Translations under genes and position numbers: made by a program
In this document: positions 9,126-19,542 of the stretch, one piece after another
Layout: the number at the start of each line of letters is the position of its first letter
How positions within the stretch are numbered: the first letter of the stretch is position 1
Notes under the pieces: model-generated
The model's input: the letters and a program-made list of their open reading frames with translations, nothing else
Told to the model about the DNA's origin: nothing
Databases searched by the model: none
Source of the DNA: Candidatus Desulfofervidaceae bacterium
GTDB lineage: Bacteria > Desulfobacterota > Desulfofervidia > Desulfofervidales > Desulfofervidaceae
Direction: 5' to 3'
NCBI GenBank assembly: GCA_021160485.1
Contig: JAGHCL010000216.1
Coordinates: 1-20,318, forward strand
Length of the DNA stretch: 20,318 bases

Positions 9126-10358
9126 TCAATTTTTATCCACCAGTATATAGTGCCAAGGAACAACTATTATATTACCAACATTAAAAATCTCTTTTCCCAG
9201 ATAAACCACAATGCCTAATGGAGATTTTTGTTTAAAATCAGACAAAAATTGTTTAAGGCTTGCCATTTTTTTTAGCGATATTTTGGAAGTGGCTTTAATC
9301 TCTATTGGGAGAAGAATATTCCCCAGTTCAAGGACTAGGTCCACCTCTCCCCCGCCATGGGTTCTAAAGTAATAAAATCTGGCTCTGGGTTCCTGTAGAG
9401 AAATGAGTTTTATTATCTCTTCCACAATAAATGTTTCAACCAGAAACTGATAATATGGATTTAGAGAAATATTTTCTTCATTCAAAGCAATTCCAGCAAG
9501 GGCAATGGCCAGACCTGTATCCCTGAAATGGATTTTAGGTGCTTTCACCAATCTTTTGCCTATGTTAGCGAAATAAGGAATAAGTCTCCTTACTTGATAA
9601 GAAAGTTCTAAAAGATGAAGATAATTCCTAGCAGTTGATACTGAAATTCCAGCGTCTCTAGCTACTTCAGATACATTTAAAACCTGAGCAGTCCTTAAGG
9701 CAAGAAGGCTCATGAAACGCTTGAAATCTCCTAAAGAAGCCACTTGAGACAACTCTCTCAGATCCCTTTCCAGATAAGTAGCAATGTAATTGTCAAACCA
9801 GAGGTTTCTAATCGTATTATCAGGGGATAAAACAGCTGGAGGAAGGGTTCCCTTTAGGACAAAATCTTCTAAAGATATAGACAAATCCAAAGTCTCAGGA
9901 AGGGAAACTTTGCCTTTCAAACAGTTTAAAATAAAAGATGATGGCTTGCCTTCCATTGATTCTGCCACAAGAAATCCTGGAAGTTCAAAGATGGCAATTC
10001 TACCTGCTAGTGTTTCAGAAATATTTTTTAATAATAAAAAATTGGCGGAACCTGTTAGCAAAAATTGTCCTGGTTTACGATTTTCATCCACCATAAGTTT
10101 TAGCACATCAAAAACCTCAGGTGCTTTTTGCACCTCATCCAGAGTAATTTCCCCTTTTTGAGAAGTTAAAAAGGAATAAGGTTCTCTTTGCAGAACTTCC
10201 CGTATAGAAGGAGAATCTAGGCTAAAATATCTTCGTTCAGGAAATTCATTTTGCACAAGTGTTGTCTTTCCTGTTTGCCTAGCACCAACTACTGCAACTA
10301 CAGGAAAAAACTCCAGGGACTTTTTTATAGGTTTGGCAAAAACTCGTTTTATATACAT
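9126..10358 (-). CDS. AAA-family ATPase with DUF4143 domain
   Basis: A 410-residue protein of the widespread AAA_14/DUF4143 family, whose physiological role is not established. It has Walker A GARQTGKT (residues 25-32), a Walker B-like EITLDEVQKAPE, and a sensor region LLTGSANFLLL. A winged-helix-like middle follows (VSEVARDAGISVSTARNYL), then a C-terminal part containing GGGEVDLVLE...LPIEIKAT, which resembles a PD-(D/E)XK core. I chose ATG 10358 (MYIKR, the common family start) over TTG 10394, which lies in an upstream palindrome; no good ribosome binding site is visible. The gene separates chlD from cobN and is unrelated to cobalt use, so it is probably an insertion. Confidence 0.9.
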   Translation of the reverse strand: MYIKRVFAKPIKKSLEFFPVVAVVGARQTGKTTLVQNEFPERRYFSLDSPSIREVLQREPYSFLTSQKGEITLDEVQKAPEVFDVLKLMVDENRKPGQFLLTGSANFLLLKNISETLAGRIAIFELPGFLVAESMEGKPSSFILNCLKGKVSLPETLDLSISLEDFVLKGTLPPAVLSPDNTIRNLWFDNYIATYLERDLRELSQVASLGDFKRFMSLLALRTAQVLNVSEVARDAGISVSTARNYLHLLELSYQVRRLIPYFANIGKRLVKAPKIHFRDTGLAIALAGIALNEENISLNPYYQFLVETFIVEEIIKLISLQEPRARFYYFRTHGGGEVDLVLELGNILLPIEIKATSKISLKKMASLKQFLSDFKQKSPLGIVVYLGKEIFNVGNIIVVPWHYILVDKN

Positions 10359-10361
10359 TGC

Positions 10362-10394
10362 TTGAAATTTAACATAAATTTTGTTAATTTTCAA
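10362..10394. promoter_or_regulatory. Operator-like inverted repeat upstream of the ATPase gene
   Basis: TTGAAATTTAAC (10362-10373) and GTTAATTTTCAA (10383-10394) form a 12-bp inverted repeat with one mismatch around a nine-base AT spacer. It ends four bases before the chosen ATG (10358), where a repressor would block initiation. On the - strand its first arm also supplies a TTGAAA -35-like sequence. The role is inferred from position only. Confidence 0.45.
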
Positions 10395-11221: not shown

Positions 11222-12121
11222 CTAAACGTAATTCCTTACTAATCGAGCCAGGTTATCTGCCTGTAAATCCTCAAGCCGATAGTATTTGGCCTTTAAATAT
11301 TCTGCTAAGTTTTGCATCCTGCCCAGATTAACAAAACCTGCTTCTACATCTACGACAATGGATTCAATGCCTGCTTTTTGTAATGTTTCAGCCACTTGTT
11401 TTACCTCATCCCAGGGATTTTGCTGCCCTATACTCACATTTGCCCGTCCGTCAGAAATAATGACCAATAAAGGACGCATTCTCGGATACTTGCGCCATTC
11501 TTTTATCATAGTTTCTTTTGCTAACCAGAGGGCATGGGCAAGTGGAGTTTTACCTCCGGTGGGTAGGATTTCCAGTCTCTGCTTGGCCAGCTCCACGCTG
11601 TTTGTTGGGGGCAGTATTAATTCTGCTTTTTTTCCCTTAAAGGCGATCATCCCCACCCTTTCTCGCCGCTGATAGGCATCTATTAGCAGAGACAAAATGG
11701 CCCCTTTGGCCGCTACCATCCTTTGATTGGCCCCCATACTCCCACTGGCATCCACAACAAAGAGAATCGTATGTCCAATCTTCTTTTCTCTTACCTTTTC
11801 TCTAAAGTCAGTGCTGGAAATTATTATCTGCTCCCCTACCCTGCGTCCACGCATAAGCTGGTAAGGTGCAGCGGCACGTAAAGTAGCGTCTATCGCCAGG
11901 TCTGTTGTTTTCTGTCGCGGTATTTGTGCCCTGACATAGCGGCCCCGTTTATGTTCAATTAAGGCAGCACTCCGACGGCCCTGGCCTTCATGGGTAAGTT
12001 TATCTTTAGAAAAAGCGATTTTTTTGACAGGGAATGGATGACCTATATCAAAACACACTTCCTGTGATGCATCCGCCCGACTTTCAGGAAACGAAGGTTC
12101 ATCTGGACTTAAATTATCGTT
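11222..12121 (-). CDS. chlD: ChlD-type VWA part of the chelatase ATPase, reached by -1 frameshift
   Basis: Encodes the von Willebrand A domain of the medium chelatase subunit: metal-binding MIDAS motif [10 protein letters not shown], the [11 protein letters not shown] segment with the MIDAS Thr, and [10 protein letters not shown]. It binds CobN and relays ATPase motion. In this frame the region opens at the A-run shared with chlI and reads [20 protein letters not shown], an acidic, proline-containing linker as expected between ChlI-like and VWA domains. No good independent start exists: GTG 12058 has AGGA only one base away, and no other start lies upstream in frame. The likely product is a fusion with the upstream ATPase domain (656 residues from ATG 13191 to TAG 11222). 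Mutation or sequencing error in the homopolymer is the alternative. Confidence 0.85.
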
Positions 12122-12133
12122 TTTTTTTCTCCT
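12109..12133 (-). other. Frameshift/slippage site: AGGAG plus nine A residues before the chlI stop
   Basis: On the - strand AGGAG (12133-12129) runs straight into nine A (12128-12120), then CGATAATTTAA with the frame-0 TAA at 12111-12109. Frame 0 reads GAA AAA AAA ACG. Slipping back one base on A AAA AAA continues AAA AAA AAC GAT into the open chlD frame. Nine A is also long enough for transcriptional slippage. I see no strong stem-loop downstream. Programmed frameshifting in chlD genes that yields two cobaltochelatase subunits has, as I recall, been reported for other bacteria. Confidence 0.75.
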
Positions 12134-13291: not shown

Positions 13292-15478
13292 TTAATATTT
13301 CAGCTCAATCTGGCCCCAGTAAGTCCTACCAGGAGTCTTATAAGACCAGTAATAGTCCTCATCAGTAAGATTATCAACGGCAAAGGAAATAGTGGCATAT
13401 TTGGTAACATCAGCACTCAGCTTTAAGTTTACAAGGTGGTGACTATCAAATACACCCGGGACATTTTCGGCAGTGTCAGAGTTATCATCTTTTTTATAAA
13501 CCTTCCCTACATAGTTCCAAGTGAGAGTGCCTTTTAAGAATTTATAATTTGCTTCTATACCAGCACTAGCGGTAACTTTTGGGGTATAAGTGATCCACTT
13601 ATTTACTGATTCAGGTTTGGCAGTGTTTTCTACAATCTTCATTGTTAGTTTATTAGAACAAACACCAAAAACCTTTAACCAGTCTGTAATTTTCTGTTCT
13701 GCCTCTAGTTCTATGCCTTTAATGTCTGTCTTACCGGCATTAGCATATTCCTTTACGCCTGAGGTGGTTTCTGTCCTATAAATTAAGTCCTTGACATAGT
13801 TTTCATAATAAGTAGCCTTAAGCACTGTTTTGCCTTCAAAAAAGGAAAAGTTAGTACCAATTTCCCAAGAGCGGGTTTTTTCTGGTTTTAAATTGGGATT
13901 GCCTTTGTATTCAGTACTACCCCAATACCAGGTCCGGTATAATTCATACACATTAGGCGCCCGAAAGGCACTTCCGGCCGAAAGTCTAAAGGTGGCAAAC
14001 TTTAGAGGCTTCCAGACAAAAGTAATCTTAGGGCTGAAAGCATATTGCTTGCGAGAGGCGTAATGTTCACTTTCATTTTTTTGATAATCTTCAAAATAAC
14101 CATCCCAGGTCTTCCAGTGGTCATAACGCGCGCCTGTGTAAACAGTAAGATTATAAGGCAAGTTTAACTCTTCTTGGAAATAAAAAGAAATGGTGCGGGT
14201 TTTACCTTCACAACTATAGAGTAATTCCTCTATGCTATTTTTACTCCTCCAGTCAGTTAATTTCCACTCACGAGTATGAGCTTGGTCACGACGATATGAA
14301 ATTCCCAAAGTCAAGAGACCTTCTTCGTGAATAACATCTGTTTGGAATTCCCAGTAATATTTTTTAGAAGGTGTAGAAGTAAGCAAAGGAACATAGCGAG
14401 TCCACGAATGAGGCGTTACATACCAGTTTGTCCTTTCATCTAATAATCCTCCTGTAAAATGTAAAAGCAAATTAGTAGCAGGTTTGGAATCAAACTTAAG
14501 GTGATAAACATCTGTAATTTCTTTTCCATAACTTCCCCAAAAATAATATGGATATACCTTATACACTTTTCCCTCAATCTCTACCTTTCCGCTATCCACC
14601 ACATTTCCATTGGCATCGCGCAAATAAGATTGGCCGTTGTCATAACCATATTTATAAAAACCTTCCTGGAAGTAGAAGGTCAATTTACTATCTTTATCAA
14701 ATTTCCATTGCCACTTGGTGTTGGCATTATAAGTGCGAATCCAATTATCCCCTTTATCGCCTAAAATATAACCTGGATTGCCATATGCATCGGTAGTGCT
14801 TATTGCACCTGTAACCGGTGTGCCTGTGCCTGTAGAAGTTTTGGTTTTGACATAATAATCTGTTACATATCCATTTGTATCTTTTCCTTCATACCCAAAG
14901 GAAAAGAATAACTTATCCTTCCAGTTATCACCATAATAGAACCCCTCCATAACGGTATCATAGGTGCCATAACCCGTTTTTGCTCTGATCTCCCGCTTCT
15001 TAGGCGTTTTGGTAATAATATTAATCACGCCTCCCATGGCATTACCACCATAAAGGGAAGAGAAAGGACCCTTTACCACTTCAATGCGGTCAATATTTTC
15101 AAGGGGTAAACTGTTCCAGTCCACTGCTCCTGTATAGCCATTGTTAAGGGGTTGACCGTCAAGTAAAATTAAAGTGCGCTTTTGCTCTGGAAAACCCCTT
15201 AAGGTAACGGCACTGAGGGTATCCATTAAACCCTTTCCCCGCCGTAAAAAGATGCCACTAACATGGCGCAATGCCTCATCCAGGGTCTTCACATTTTCTT
15301 TTTTTAAATCTTCAGCCGTAATAACAGTAATACTGGCCGGTGCATCTTCTATGCGTTTGGGTGTTTTAGTGGCTGTAACCACAATTTCTTCCAATTCAAC
15401 CGCTTCCTGAGCCCACGTCTGGGTCATAAAGATAAAACACAGTAAAATTCCTACTAGCATCCAGACCTTCTTCCGCAT
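13292..15478 (-). CDS. TonB-dependent outer-membrane receptor
   Basis: A 728-residue outer-membrane gated channel. A signal peptide ends around residue 23 (TQTWAQ) and a TonB box-like [11 protein letters not shown] follows. Next come the plug domain ([14 protein letters not shown], then [18 protein letters not shown] and [19 protein letters not shown]) and a long beta-barrel with many alternating aromatic strands, ending in IELKY with the expected terminal aromatic residue. Barrel motifs [10 protein letters not shown] and [15 protein letters not shown] are typical of BtuB/CirA-like receptors. The ligand cannot be read from sequence; a cobalt or nickel chelate or corrinoid is inferred from the cbiOQ and chelatase neighbours. 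ATG 15478 follows GAGGAGG at five-base spacing and a structured leader. Confidence 0.93.
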
Positions 15479-15694: not shown

Positions 15695-16579
15695 TCACAA
15701 TTTACTCCCTAGGGCATAAAAACACTGCCAGCCCGGGTGGTAAAAAATGCCCTGGGCGTAAAGAAAATAAATAAACTTTACCAGGGCAACAAAAATGGAC
15801 AGGGTTAGCACCAAAGCAATACCTATTTTATCTGACCATTTAAACGCTAATTGCTGCCAACTGCTCCGCTGGGTTGTGGGAGAAAATCCCCGGCTGTAAG
15901 CTGCGGCCGCCAGGGTATATGAGCGCCTTAATGTATTGGCCAGCACCGGCGTGAGGGTGAAAAACACCATCTTGGGCAAGTGCCTGAATTTAAAGGGTTC
16001 AAAGCCCTTTATCCTTTGTGCCATGATCACATTCATAAATTCTTCGGTTAAAATGGGGATAAAACGCAAGGCCGTCATCACCATAAATGCCAGTGAATAT
16101 GGAACCTTTATAGCCGTCAGGGCCAGAAGCACATCTCTGGCTTCAGTAGTAAAACAGACGAGCAACCCCAGGGCGAGATTACTGGTAAGCCGCAACCCCT
16201 GGATCAGGCCATAAGTTAAACCTTCCCGATAGATGTAAATGCCCCCAGTTAATTTCCCTAAAACTGGGAAATCAGCAGGTAAAAGGGTTAACATAATTGT
16301 ACGGGGAAATGCCTGATAAAACAGGGCCTGACTGAATATTGTCGTCCAGAGGCTGAGGACAATAAATAAACATGCCAGCTTTAACTGAATCAAAGACAGC
16401 CGGGCCAATAAATATAAAAAGAGGATACTAAGAAACAAGATGGCTAGCGATAAAGGTCTATCCAAGCTAATACTTAATAACACCGTGCTGGCCAAAAAGG
16501 CCATTTTTGTCCTTGGATCAAGCTGGCTGAACCATGAGGGTTTGATTTCTGCTTGGATAATTTTTCTAATGCGTTCCAC
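15695..16579 (-). CDS. cbiQ: Energy-coupling factor transmembrane protein (CbiQ/EcfT)
   Basis: The membrane coupling subunit of an energy-coupling-factor importer, linking the CbiO ATPases to a substrate-binding membrane protein. About 294 residues with an N-terminal LDPRTKMAFL motif typical of EcfT, at least five membrane segments, and the two Ala/Arg/Gly coupling motifs in degenerate (AQRIKGF) and clear (AAAAYSRGF) form. I chose GTG 16579, which has GGAG six bases upstream and a 14-base overlap with cbiO; ATG 16651 would give 24 extra residues and an 86-base overlap. The substrate is probably cobalt or nickel from context. The leader of the TonB receptor gene follows. Confidence 0.9.
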   Translation of the reverse strand: MERIRKIIQAEIKPSWFSQLDPRTKMAFLASTVLLSISLDRPLSLAILFLSILFLYLLARLSLIQLKLACLFIVLSLWTTIFSQALFYQAFPRTIMLTLLPADFPVLGKLTGGIYIYREGLTYGLIQGLRLTSNLALGLLVCFTTEARDVLLALTAIKVPYSLAFMVMTALRFIPILTEEFMNVIMAQRIKGFEPFKFRHLPKMVFFTLTPVLANTLRRSYTLAAAAYSRGFSPTTQRSSWQQLAFKWSDKIGIALVLTLSIFVALVKFIYFLYAQGIFYHPGWQCFYALGSKL

Positions 16580-17981
16580 CCTTCTCTCCACAAAAGACAA
16601 TCTGTCCTTGTTCCATAAAGAAAATTCTATCTGCCCATTTGAAAGCAACATCTAGGTCATGGGTAACAAAGGCCACTGTCCTGCCCTGAAGGGTTAATGT
16701 TTTTAAATAATGCATTAGCCTTTCAATCTCCCCTGCATCCTGGCCTGAGGTAGGCTCATCTAGGAGCAGGATGTCTGGGTTAAGGGCTAAAACCGAGGCA
16801 ACTGCTACCCGTAACCTCTGCCCCCGACTCAAGGCCTGGGGTGCATCATCTTTGAAGGCCATTAAATTCAATGCCCTGAGGATAGTTTCTACCCTTTGTG
16901 CAATCTGACCAGATGGTATTTTTCTGCTCTTCAGCCCAAAGGCCACTTCTTCCCACACTGTTTTAGAAAACAGCATCAAATCAGGATTTTGCAGAACAAG
17001 ACCTGCGGACTTGTCACTTAAAATGCGCCCCTGTGTGGGTGAGAGTAAACCCGCCAGAAGATGAAGCAATGTGCTTTTCCCTGCCCCATTGGGACCCACA
17101 ATGGCTACTATTTCGCCCGGGAAAAGGCAAAAGGAAATACCTTTCAGCAGGGTGAGATAACTTAATCCTTCTGCTTTTAATATCCAGTCCTGGCGGGAAA
17201 AGGATCTCACTGGAGTCAAAGACATTTTTAATGTCTCTAAATCAGAAAACCTGGGTGGTGCCTTCGGTTTTAAACCCAATTCTTGCAATAAATCCGGCGA
17301 CAGGGCCTGGGGAGAACCATTAAACAATACCTTTCCCTGATTCATAACGACGACATGGGTAGCGTAAGGCACGACCCAGGGGAGGCGGTGTTCTACCAAG
17401 ATAACAGTAACCCCTCGTTTTTTGAGGCTTAAAAGCACTTCCAATACTTGCTTCACACCAATAAGGTCTAGCTGGGCCAGGGGTTCATCCAGGGCTAAGA
17501 CGGCTGGCTGCATGGCCAAAACCGAGGCAATAGCCAATCTTTGCTTTTCACCGCCAGATAGATTAAAAGTGGAGCCATGTCTAAAGTCTTCTAATCCGAC
17601 CTGACAGAGAGCAGCGGTAATGCGTTTTTCCATTTCTGTCTGTGAAAGGTTTAAGTTTTCCAGACCAAAGCCCACTTCTTCTTCTACTTTGGTGGTAAAA
17701 AGCTGGTCATCTGGATTTTGAAAGATAAGTCCAATAGTGCTACATCTATCATGGTGATTTAAGTCTGTTACCGGTACGCCCCTGATTTGCACCTTTCCTT
17801 CCAAATTTCCTGTTACTTCGGCTGGAATAAGTCCATTTAAAGTCTTTAGAAGAGTGCTTTTGCCACAACCTGTAGGGCCGGTAATCAGTAAAAATTCTCC
17901 TTCTTTTATGCTCAAATTGATCCCGGCAAGTGCGGGCCGGTCTTTACCTGCATAGGTAAAACTAAGTTCTTCTATCTGCAT
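16566..17981 (-). CDS. cbiO: Fused double ATPase of an ECF transporter (CbiO/EcfA type)
   Basis: One 471-residue chain with two ABC ATPase domains. Domain 1 has Walker A GPTGCGKST (residues 35-43), signature LSGGEKQRLA and Walker B AVLALDEPLAQLD. Domain 2 has GPNGAGKST, a degenerate signature LSRGQRLRVA, and DILLLDEPTSGQD. It powers uptake through CbiQ and a substrate-specific membrane protein. ATG 17981 is preferred because GGGGAG lies nine bases upstream; ATG 18002 in the same frame has no such site. The gene follows the 507-residue membrane protein closely and overlaps cbiQ, so the three should be made together. Fused EcfA pairs are common in ECF modules. Confidence 0.93.
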   Translation of the reverse strand: MQIEELSFTYAGKDRPALAGINLSIKEGEFLLITGPTGCGKSTLLKTLNGLIPAEVTGNLEGKVQIRGVPVTDLNHHDRCSTIGLIFQNPDDQLFTTKVEEEVGFGLENLNLSQTEMEKRITAALCQVGLEDFRHGSTFNLSGGEKQRLAIASVLAMQPAVLALDEPLAQLDLIGVKQVLEVLLSLKKRGVTVILVEHRLPWVVPYATHVVVMNQGKVLFNGSPQALSPDLLQELGLKPKAPPRFSDLETLKMSLTPVRSFSRQDWILKAEGLSYLTLLKGISFCLFPGEIVAIVGPNGAGKSTLLHLLAGLLSPTQGRILSDKSAGLVLQNPDLMLFSKTVWEEVAFGLKSRKIPSGQIAQRVETILRALNLMAFKDDAPQALSRGQRLRVAVASVLALNPDILLLDEPTSGQDAGEIERLMHYLKTLTLQGRTVAFVTHDLDVAFKWADRIFFMEQGQIVFCGEKGGTH

Positions 17982-18018
17982 CAACACCATCTCCCCTTCC
18001 ATCTACGCTTTCACGCAT

Positions 18019-19542
18019 CTACACATTTACGCACTTAAGCCTCTGTCCTAGTTTTATGCCAGCAAAAGTAGCTACAAAGGTGTAAAGAAAGCCAGGTACA
18101 AGTAGATAAAGCCAGATATACCAATCAGCATAATAAAGCCGATAAAGAACCATGAATAAATTCAGGGTGATATAGCTGATGGCAGCATCAGCCAGCCCCA
18201 GCCATAAAGCCAGGGTTAAGCGGGGTTTCTGTCCTCGGGTAAGACCACTTACATAAAAGGCTGCTTCCAGAAACAAAGTGTATGGTCCCAAAGCAAGAAG
18301 TGAAGCAGGTGTGAAACTCCCAAAAAGAAAATCGTTTAAAAGTGAGCGGATAAGAATGGCCAGGGTGGTAACACCCGGACAAGGAATAAGCCACACTAGG
18401 GCAACAAGCAGGATATAAAAGATTATCTCATAAAACAGCCCAGTGATAAAAAAGGCAAATGGCCCCAAGCATAAATGGGCAAACTGGAATAAAAAGTGAC
18501 CAGGTAAATTAACAACAGCAAAGATACTTGCCCCGAATAGGGTAATGGTCATGAAATGGCGCATTTTAAATGTCTTTAGCCAGTATCGCTGCCAGATAAA
18601 ACCAATGAGCAAACCTAAATCCAGCACAATAGCTAGACAGGTATTGAAAAGGGATATCTGCCGACGTGAGGTGGCGTGTAAAGGAAAGGTTTTTTCTGCG
18701 AGGATGAGTTCGGTACCAAAGAATTTGAGCGTGAGTTTACCCTGATACTGACCCGGAAGTAGCGTGTCTGCTTCTCCATATACTGGCAGGGACAGATTTA
18801 TAGTCTGATGAGGAGGCAACATAACCAATCGGTAGTTGCCCTTTAAGCTTAAACCCCCGTGGCCAGGTGGTAATTGTGGATCAAAACCAGCGATTCTCTT
18901 TCCTGTTTTGGGGTTACATACTTTCAAATGTACTACTACTGGTACAGAAAAAGGTAGATTGTTGCGCAATATCACCCCCAGGTAGGTAGCGGGAGGACTG
19001 ATACCCTTTTGCTCTCGGAACCAGAATGGGGAGCGTAAAATTAAAGTATAGGGCCTTTGCGCCTTTAAAGGACGTCCTTGGACATCTGCCGGAAGATAGA
19101 AATTCTGCAGATGCACAGCCTGTTTGAGTTTAAAGGCGTCCAGTACCCGGATGGTTTCATGCTTGGTAAAGTGTTTAGTTGTTGCATTATATTGATAGGT
19201 GACCTGAATATTAATTGAATAAGCTCCAGAGGTCGGCGCAGAAAAATCAATCACTCGAAACCATTTTGCGTGTTTTACTGGTAAAGAAAAGCATGCACTG
19301 AATTCTGATGCAGGAGAAACTTTAAATGCAGCAGGAAATTCCAGCTTTAGAGTTACAAAAACAGGCTTATCTTCCAAATTTTCTACCACTAAAAGGGCAC
19401 TTGTTTGGGTATGGGCAATGATAAATCCGCTTTTCTGCCCATAAGGTACCTGGAAATCAACCTTTAATGGCATTGCTTTTAACTCTCCAGTTAAACACAT
19501 TAGTCCAATAAAGCTTAAAATGGACATCCACCTCCGGCTCAT
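18019..19542 (-). CDS. Exported beta-rich ectodomain fused to a polytopic membrane domain; candidate S component
   Basis: Family not recognised. The 507-residue protein starts with a signal peptide (MSRRWMSILS to LKA, residues 1-23). Residues about 24-290 are hydrophilic and beta-rich, with two Ig-like or NEW-type stretches (TSALLVVENLEDKPVFVTLKL, ATYLGVILRNNLPFSVPV). From residue 293 to the end there are six or so membrane segments rich in aromatic residues, with NDFLFGSFTPASLLALGPY, ending in GIKLGQRLKCVNV. Position directly before cbiO and cbiQ, and the lack of CbiM/CbiN, suggest the membrane half is the substrate-specific subunit of the ECF importer and the ectodomain a periplasmic receiver. 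That role is inference; an envelope protein only co-transcribed with the importer is the alternative. Confidence 0.6.
   Translation of the reverse strand: MSRRWMSILSFIGLMCLTGELKAMPLKVDFQVPYGQKSGFIIAHTQTSALLVVENLEDKPVFVTLKLEFPAAFKVSPASEFSACFSLPVKHAKWFRVIDFSAPTSGAYSINIQVTYQYNATTKHFTKHETIRVLDAFKLKQAVHLQNFYLPADVQGRPLKAQRPYTLILRSPFWFREQKGISPPATYLGVILRNNLPFSVPVVVHLKVCNPKTGKRIAGFDPQLPPGHGGLSLKGNYRLVMLPPHQTINLSLPVYGEADTLLPGQYQGKLTLKFFGTELILAEKTFPLHATSRRQISLFNTCLAIVLDLGLLIGFIWQRYWLKTFKMRHFMTITLFGASIFAVVNLPGHFLFQFAHLCLGPFAFFITGLFYEIIFYILLVALVWLIPCPGVTTLAILIRSLLNDFLFGSFTPASLLALGPYTLFLEAAFYVSGLTRGQKPRLTLALWLGLADAAISYITLNLFMVLYRLYYADWYIWLYLLVPGFLYTFVATFAGIKLGQRLKCVNV

Follow-up and report, generated by a model that had tools for sequence, protein, structure and literature searches.

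The question raised by this locus is how a chelatase gene should be read when its two halves lie in different frames, a ChlI-like frame that stops just past nine A residues and a VWA frame that is open across the same run in the -1 register. The window, i.e. the whole stretch of DNA that was analysed (20,318 bases), is the entire contig C99 of a 1.55 Mb assembly in 219 contigs (81.3% complete), and its features are collected in Table 1. The reading favoured here, at a probability of about 0.8, is that of a frameshifted chlD gene (fs-chlD), predicted from its sequence to give a short ChlI and a fused ChlID product by a -1 slip on A9. Normal decoding would yield a 360-residue ChlI-like small subunit, while the slip, in which two tRNA-Lys would most probably re-pair on A_AAA_AAA, would yield a 656-residue ChlID medium subunit; the insertion of an A by RNA polymerase would be an alternative or additional route, and the partner of both products would be the CobN-like large subunit, whose gene lies close by. 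That slipping takes place in this organism, how often it does so, whether at the ribosome or the polymerase, and on what substrate the enzyme acts, are inferences. The preliminary description of this DNA had mentioned chlD genes with programmed frameshifting and, indeed, a literature on frameshifted chlD with an A9 cassette was found, so that the kind is already known and the gene reported here is a new member of it in another lineage.

Table 1. Features of the window (positions on the window, all on the minus strand).
Feature	Positions	Strand	Basis and remarks
ChlI-like small-subunit frame (AAA+ core and AAA lid), 360 aa	13191..12109	-	ATG 13191, TAA 12111-12109; Mg_chelatase, AAA_lid_2; TIGR02442 positions 1-343 of 641; ChlI/BchI chains 8osf, 6l8d, 1g8p
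A9 slippery run	12120..12128	-	Zero frame GAA AAA AAA ACG; A_AAA_AAA in phase
AGGAG, flush 5' of the A9 run	12129..12133	-	No conservation with out-of-frame relatives
-1 frame, linker and VWA domain (entered via the putative slip)	12127..11222	-	VWA_2, VWA; TIGR02442 positions 362-641; BchD chain 2x31
GTG, start codon in the VWA frame near the junction	12056..12058	-	Poor ribosome-binding context
CobN-like large subunit, 1295 aa	8885..4998	-	NF004646 1994 bits, cut-off 1468; only one found in the assembly
AAA_14/DUF4143 ATPase, between cobN and chlID	10394..9126	-	Probably outside the chelatase
TonB-dependent receptor	15478..13292	-	Highest-scoring NCBIfam model haemin-type (233 bits; cut-off of 316.85 not reached)
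CbiQ-like ECF transmembrane component	16651..15695	-	PF02361; NCBIfam match below cut-off
Double ECF ATPase (CbiO-like)	18002..16566	-	Profile matches
507-aa protein	19542..18019	-	No Pfam or NCBIfam match

The coordinates and frames of the junction, as well as the position of the AGGAG, are those first described. The A9 of the mRNA appears as T9 on the plus strand; the zero frame, whose ATG is preceded by another AGGAG, ends GGA GAA AAA AAA ACG ATA ATT TAA, with 8 bases between A9 and the stop, and the -1 register reads ..AAC GAT AAT TTA AGT CCA.., being open from past TAA 12169-12167 to a stop at 11224-11222 (not 11220). In the VWA frame, first described as having no usable start of its own, the sole start codon between the upstream stop and 120 nt past the run is GTG 12058, which lies 61 nt 3' of the run and about 50 nt beyond the ChlI stop, with an AGGA almost in contact. 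The A9 run was rejected as evidence on its own because 21 such runs occur in the assembly, several of them within ordinary sense frames. Only one of the 21, the chlD junction, brings together two frames that each exceed 300 codons; at another of these sites (L123), the frames count 160 and 115 codons.

Starting at ATG 13191, the joined product counts 656 aa, the length first given for a ChlI-ChlD type fusion, and exceeds the cut-offs of both fused families, with 854 bits against TIGR02442, the fused "putative cobaltochelatase" (cut-off 779.45; positions 1-641 of 641 covered), and 521.3 bits against TIGR02031 (cut-off 499.55). Taken alone, the ChlI and VWA halves reach 545.6 and 305.2 bits against TIGR02442, both below cut-off, and by sequence they match solved chains of ChlI/BchI and BchD, respectively. 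The VWA frame is intact over 300 codons and carries DASGS, which we take to be the metal-site motif. Domain order and length are also those of the continuous TIGR02442 genes, e.g. in Kuenenia (L032), the cut-off of which the join passes; these genes differ in having one open frame, and the linkers of L032 and L191 have neither an A7+ run nor A_AAA_AAR.

Regarding the function of the complex, the presence of CobN was verified, the large subunit passing CobN models but also the BchH model TIGR02025. A cobaltochelatase for B12 fits as far as the matches to CobN and ChlID models go, but not as regards the pathway: only two TP_methylase matches were found in the window genome (G000) and in each of four genomes of the family (G001-G004, 99-100% complete), and neither CbiX nor CbiD had a match in G000 (81% complete), so that there is no clear sign of corrin synthesis de novo. 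Elsewhere, a genome from the same order likewise has two TP_methylase matches, whereas they number seven to eight in six other genomes with shifted genes, six in G048 and one in G009. The "cobalto" label of the chelatase is doubtful, and the name cobaltochelatase may mislead more generally in genomes lacking a corrin pathway. We think an imported tetrapyrrole or metal as likely a substrate as de novo B12, and the odds are about even that the complex inserts metal into, or removes it from, an imported tetrapyrrole, or acts on some other substrate, which is compatible with the frameshift. Besides the scarcity of TP_methylase, CbiX and CbiD matches, this is suggested by the TonB receptor, CbiQ and CbiO adjoining the gene, and by the haem de-chelatase HmuS, a CobN relative encoded in a haem-uptake operon that strips iron from haem according to PMC12583661. 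The same text describes the activity of HmuS as independent of ATP, whereas an ATP-driven ChlID motor is found here, so that HmuS is no direct model; the CobN models passed by the large subunit, the 81% completeness of the assembly and one GATase_3 protein over cut-off likewise speak against an imported substrate. The 507-aa protein adjoins CbiQ/CbiO, a place in which one might look for a substrate-binding component, and a relative (45% identity) is encoded in L069 beside CbiO, CbiQ and ChlD.

The preliminary description had proposed looking for the A-run and the -1 offset in related genes, and both recur there. Loci were classified by script, seven being excluded as duplicate stretches, and the ChlI and VWA halves are out of frame in 38 loci, the window included, with an offset of -1 in 38/38; five of these (L027, L028, L176, L179, L180) were retained despite weak VWA similarity (58-112 bits). 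Every overlap contains an A-run, of A9 in 29, A10 in five, A8 in three and A7 in one, even in genes with a GC content of up to 0.73, and the first A falls on codon position 1, 2 or 3 in 15, 12 and 11 loci, respectively; it follows from these lengths and phases that A_AAA_AAR is in phase in 38/38. In comparison, the linker holds A7+ in 8/84 and A9+ in 5/84 complete continuous genes, both sets including near-copies, the removal of which leaves 35 of the 38 loci. Six apparent +1 offsets (L019, L030, L034, L071, L081, L099) were rejected, their VWA match being an adjoining full-length chlD, and none is left once a distance limit is applied. The nearest protein, P0002 (354 aa, ENA), is 86% identical to the ChlI product and ends EKKTMI where the latter ends EKKTII, despite in-frame linker gaps; no VWA partner of P0002 was among the matches listed (best 120). 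This shared end, together with A7-A10 runs and -1 offsets in 38/38 out-of-frame loci, indicates that the frame break is no chance event. As side observations, L027 and L028 are divergent AAA/VWA genes from two genomes of the same phylum, split at T-A9-G, and the chlI end in L169, from another genome of that phylum, is identical in its bases to that in the named locus L081, which suggests that the phylum is probably that of Thermodesulfobacterium.

Transcriptional slippage was first suggested as perhaps mattering more than ribosomal shifting, a view that the constant offset weakens. Polymerase slippage, in which an added A would give a pool of A9 and A10 mRNAs, both translated normally, is a variant of the fs-chlD reading and, in our judgement, a possible but rather unlikely one. 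It would account for the pure A-run of 8-10 in 37/38 loci, which falls in all three codon phases, so that what seems to be kept is the length of the run and not its codon phase; PMC3711429 also records slippage on nine A's in T. thermophilus dnaX. Besides, neither a stem-loop nor a Shine-Dalgarno-like (SD-like) element is conserved. No stem-loop was found 3' of the A9 run of the window (z +0.88 and +1.23), in agreement with the first description, while downstream structure is usual, though not obligatory, for such signals (Kuznetsov 2022); the mean z of the 38 shifted loci is -0.38 vs. -0.19 for 66 continuous ones (Mann-Whitney p 0.40), and no Rfam family, riboswitch included, was detected in the window at gathering thresholds. 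The AGGAG was rejected as a stimulator, since SD-like matches of at least 4 bases within 20 nt upstream are no commoner (8/38 out-of-frame loci) than expected from shuffling (about 8.5). Against polymerase slippage stand the in-phase A_AAA_AAR in 38/38 and above all the -1 direction in 38/38: as given in section 10 of PMC3711429, a constant direction indicates ribosomal frameshifting, and the orthologues of families with confirmed slippage, e.g. transposases, need not keep one direction. The argument from direction is nonetheless weak, because independent gains may be few. The run length, mostly nine and in all three codon phases, suits polymerase slippage as well. Reporters of the fs-chlD family in E. 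coli gave 63% with A11, 40% with A9 and 10% with A7 (section 24 of the same source). We lean towards ribosomal frameshifting over polymerase slippage.

How the split state is distributed was followed in proteins as well as in DNA. The 119 proteins nearest to that of the window, within the best 120 of 7994 matches, comprise 57 of full length, 26 short ones with a lysine run (25 with KKK near the end, plus P0002), 33 short ones without, and three partial ones. Many of the 33 have histidine-rich tails, and short proteins of this type may be true separate ChlI. Twelve short ChlI proteins could be matched to a VWA protein by the equal size of the longest source contig, which suggests that they are split pairs; the ChlI ends at a KKK run in nine of these presumed pairs and at KEDD in three.

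The window gene and P0002 form a pair (support 100/100) in a carefully built 70-row tree, inside a 22-row clade (98/96) whose other members are 19 continuous genes and one frameshifted gene, L043 of Bacteroidales. Seven of these 19 rows are database proteins picked for full length, and the notion of a gene nested in a mostly continuous clade was discarded as partly a sampling effect, the clade being mixed once short proteins are added. The frameshifted label requires six changes on this tree, five of them forced by starred branches, with gains and losses indistinguishable; in a rapidly built tree for 147 ChlI halves, lysine-run short proteins require nine changes, six of them forced, and among the starred sets that comprise no more than half the rows, just one contains the window gene, namely its pair with P0002. 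A single origin was rejected for 26 frameshifted rows, of which 25 were identified from DNA and the last is P0002 (AU p 4.5e-56), and so was a common origin of the window gene with the Chloroflexi genes (p 1.9e-4); one with Bacteroidales L043 is compatible with the data (p 0.147).

Close relatives also differ in state, as read for the two following comparisons from protein sequences alone. In Elusimicrobiota, the continuous P0029 (660 aa) and the short P0038 (374 aa) share 321/335 residues (95.8%) of the ChlI half; at the linker, P0029 reads NEEKNEEPTPG, P0038 ends NEKKKRRVNPR, and P0136, the VWA protein matched to P0038 by equal source-contig size, reads KKKNEESTPD at the same point. Likewise, the continuous P0084 (EQEKKDQSPS) and the short P0083 (EQEKKKTIPI) share 290/330 residues (87.9%) of this half. 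The A-run is thus probably an evolutionary switch, with chlD flipping repeatedly between continuous and frameshifted states, each time with about nine A and -1, and with a few genes in reverse. Such reversal, in which a slip in a continuous gene would make the short subunit, is a lead only and concerns the five continuous genes of the 84 with A9-A10 in the linker (L008, L010, L015, L058, L107), all of which meet a -1 stop within nine codons; L107 has the shifted Herpetosiphon L074 as its sister in the tree, and L160, also shifted, is sister to L010 and L015. The idea that the reverse layout generally holds where a continuous gene has no separate ChlI was rejected: 3/19 named singles, 1/11 others and 1/24 paired genes combine A_AAA_AAR with a stop in the -1 frame no more than 10 codons on, and such a site is missing from most continuous genes scanned. 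The published inference is that fs-chlD genes are distinct from unshifted ones and spread by transfer rather than evolving anew, which the sample of window kin does not fit: here, the frameshifted form is suggested to come and go instead of descending from one ancient inheritance. In the passages covered of the chlD and chelatase frameshift literature (PMC9227772, PMC3711429, PMC5009743 and PMC8211752), neither a repeated origin nor sisters that differ in state are described, which is no proof that none has been published. Close split and continuous pairs offer a means of testing the need for both products, and the ribosome against RNA polymerase.

The ease with which sisters change between the split and continuous states also bears on whether the window gene merely suffered a recent frameshift mutation, or is decaying, being rescued by slipping or dead. 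This is improbable, even though, P0002 aside, the closest rows in the trees are continuous and no match was found in four sampled family members. It agrees poorly with an end point kept in a relative at 86% identity, with the intact VWA frame and its DASGS, with the recurrence of A-run and offset in other lineages, and with two contigs in agreement, the database giving a contig count of two for the 360-aa product as well as for the 278-aa one (longest contig 23,791 bases, vs. 20,318 for the window). A tolerated, slip-rescued change is possible, given that many near relatives are continuous, 57 of the 119 nearest proteins (best 120 of 7994) being full length. Equally hard to sustain is the view that nothing joins the halves and that a free VWA protein is made separately from ChlI, its translation re-initiating at GTG 12058. 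In other lineages, a VWA half may function unattached, where P0065 and P0072 (ChlI ending KEDD) and P0124 and P0126 (VWA beginning MID) point, on an inferred pairing, to a possible stop-start overlap without lysine run; however, the place of this GTG past the stop, with its AGGA almost touching, is unfavourable, in 13/38 out-of-frame loci the VWA frame lacks any ATG, GTG or TTG between the overlap and a point 120 nt beyond the run, and the conserved A-run would be left unexplained. As for an assembly error at A9, it is unlikely in view of the two contigs counted for both products and of the 86%-identical relative stopping at the same place.

The fs-chlD reading places the gene beside other systems in which a slip sets two products. 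With E. coli dnaX, where the slip is ribosomal and yields the short product, and T. thermophilus dnaX, where slippage occurs on nine A's, it shares a homopurine slip site and two subunits of one complex, but the proteins are unrelated and the slip here would give the long product. The likeness to described fs-chlD genes (Antonov 2013, 2020; Kuznetsov 2022) is closer, including ChlI and VWA halves that overlap and are offset by -1, an A-run containing A_AAA_AAR ahead of the stop of the zero frame, and short and fused products to be expected; the window gene is set apart in that no stimulatory structure was found, that its nearest kin mix continuous and split genes, and that its host lineage is without evident corrin synthesis. 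It adds a lineage to this known case of one gene for two subunits.

Finally, the preliminary description had drawn support from there being no separate small-subunit gene. No other full ChlI gene was found in the 81.3%-complete assembly, the one weak match (L002) being presumably a ComM/YifB-type protein, but the argument itself is weak. Among 43 genomes reached via named loci, a single ChlI-like match (E 1e-20) was found in 12/20 with shifted and 19/23 with continuous genes, the latter having been chosen for no adjacent ChlI and the completeness of the 43 not being given. As 19/23 continuous-gene genomes also have a single match, a missing separate ChlI is by itself no argument for frameshifting, and two products may not be needed in the cell. 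The genome with a single TP_methylase match (G009) holds four ChlI-like matches (C214, C299, C536, C544) of 68-72% identity.
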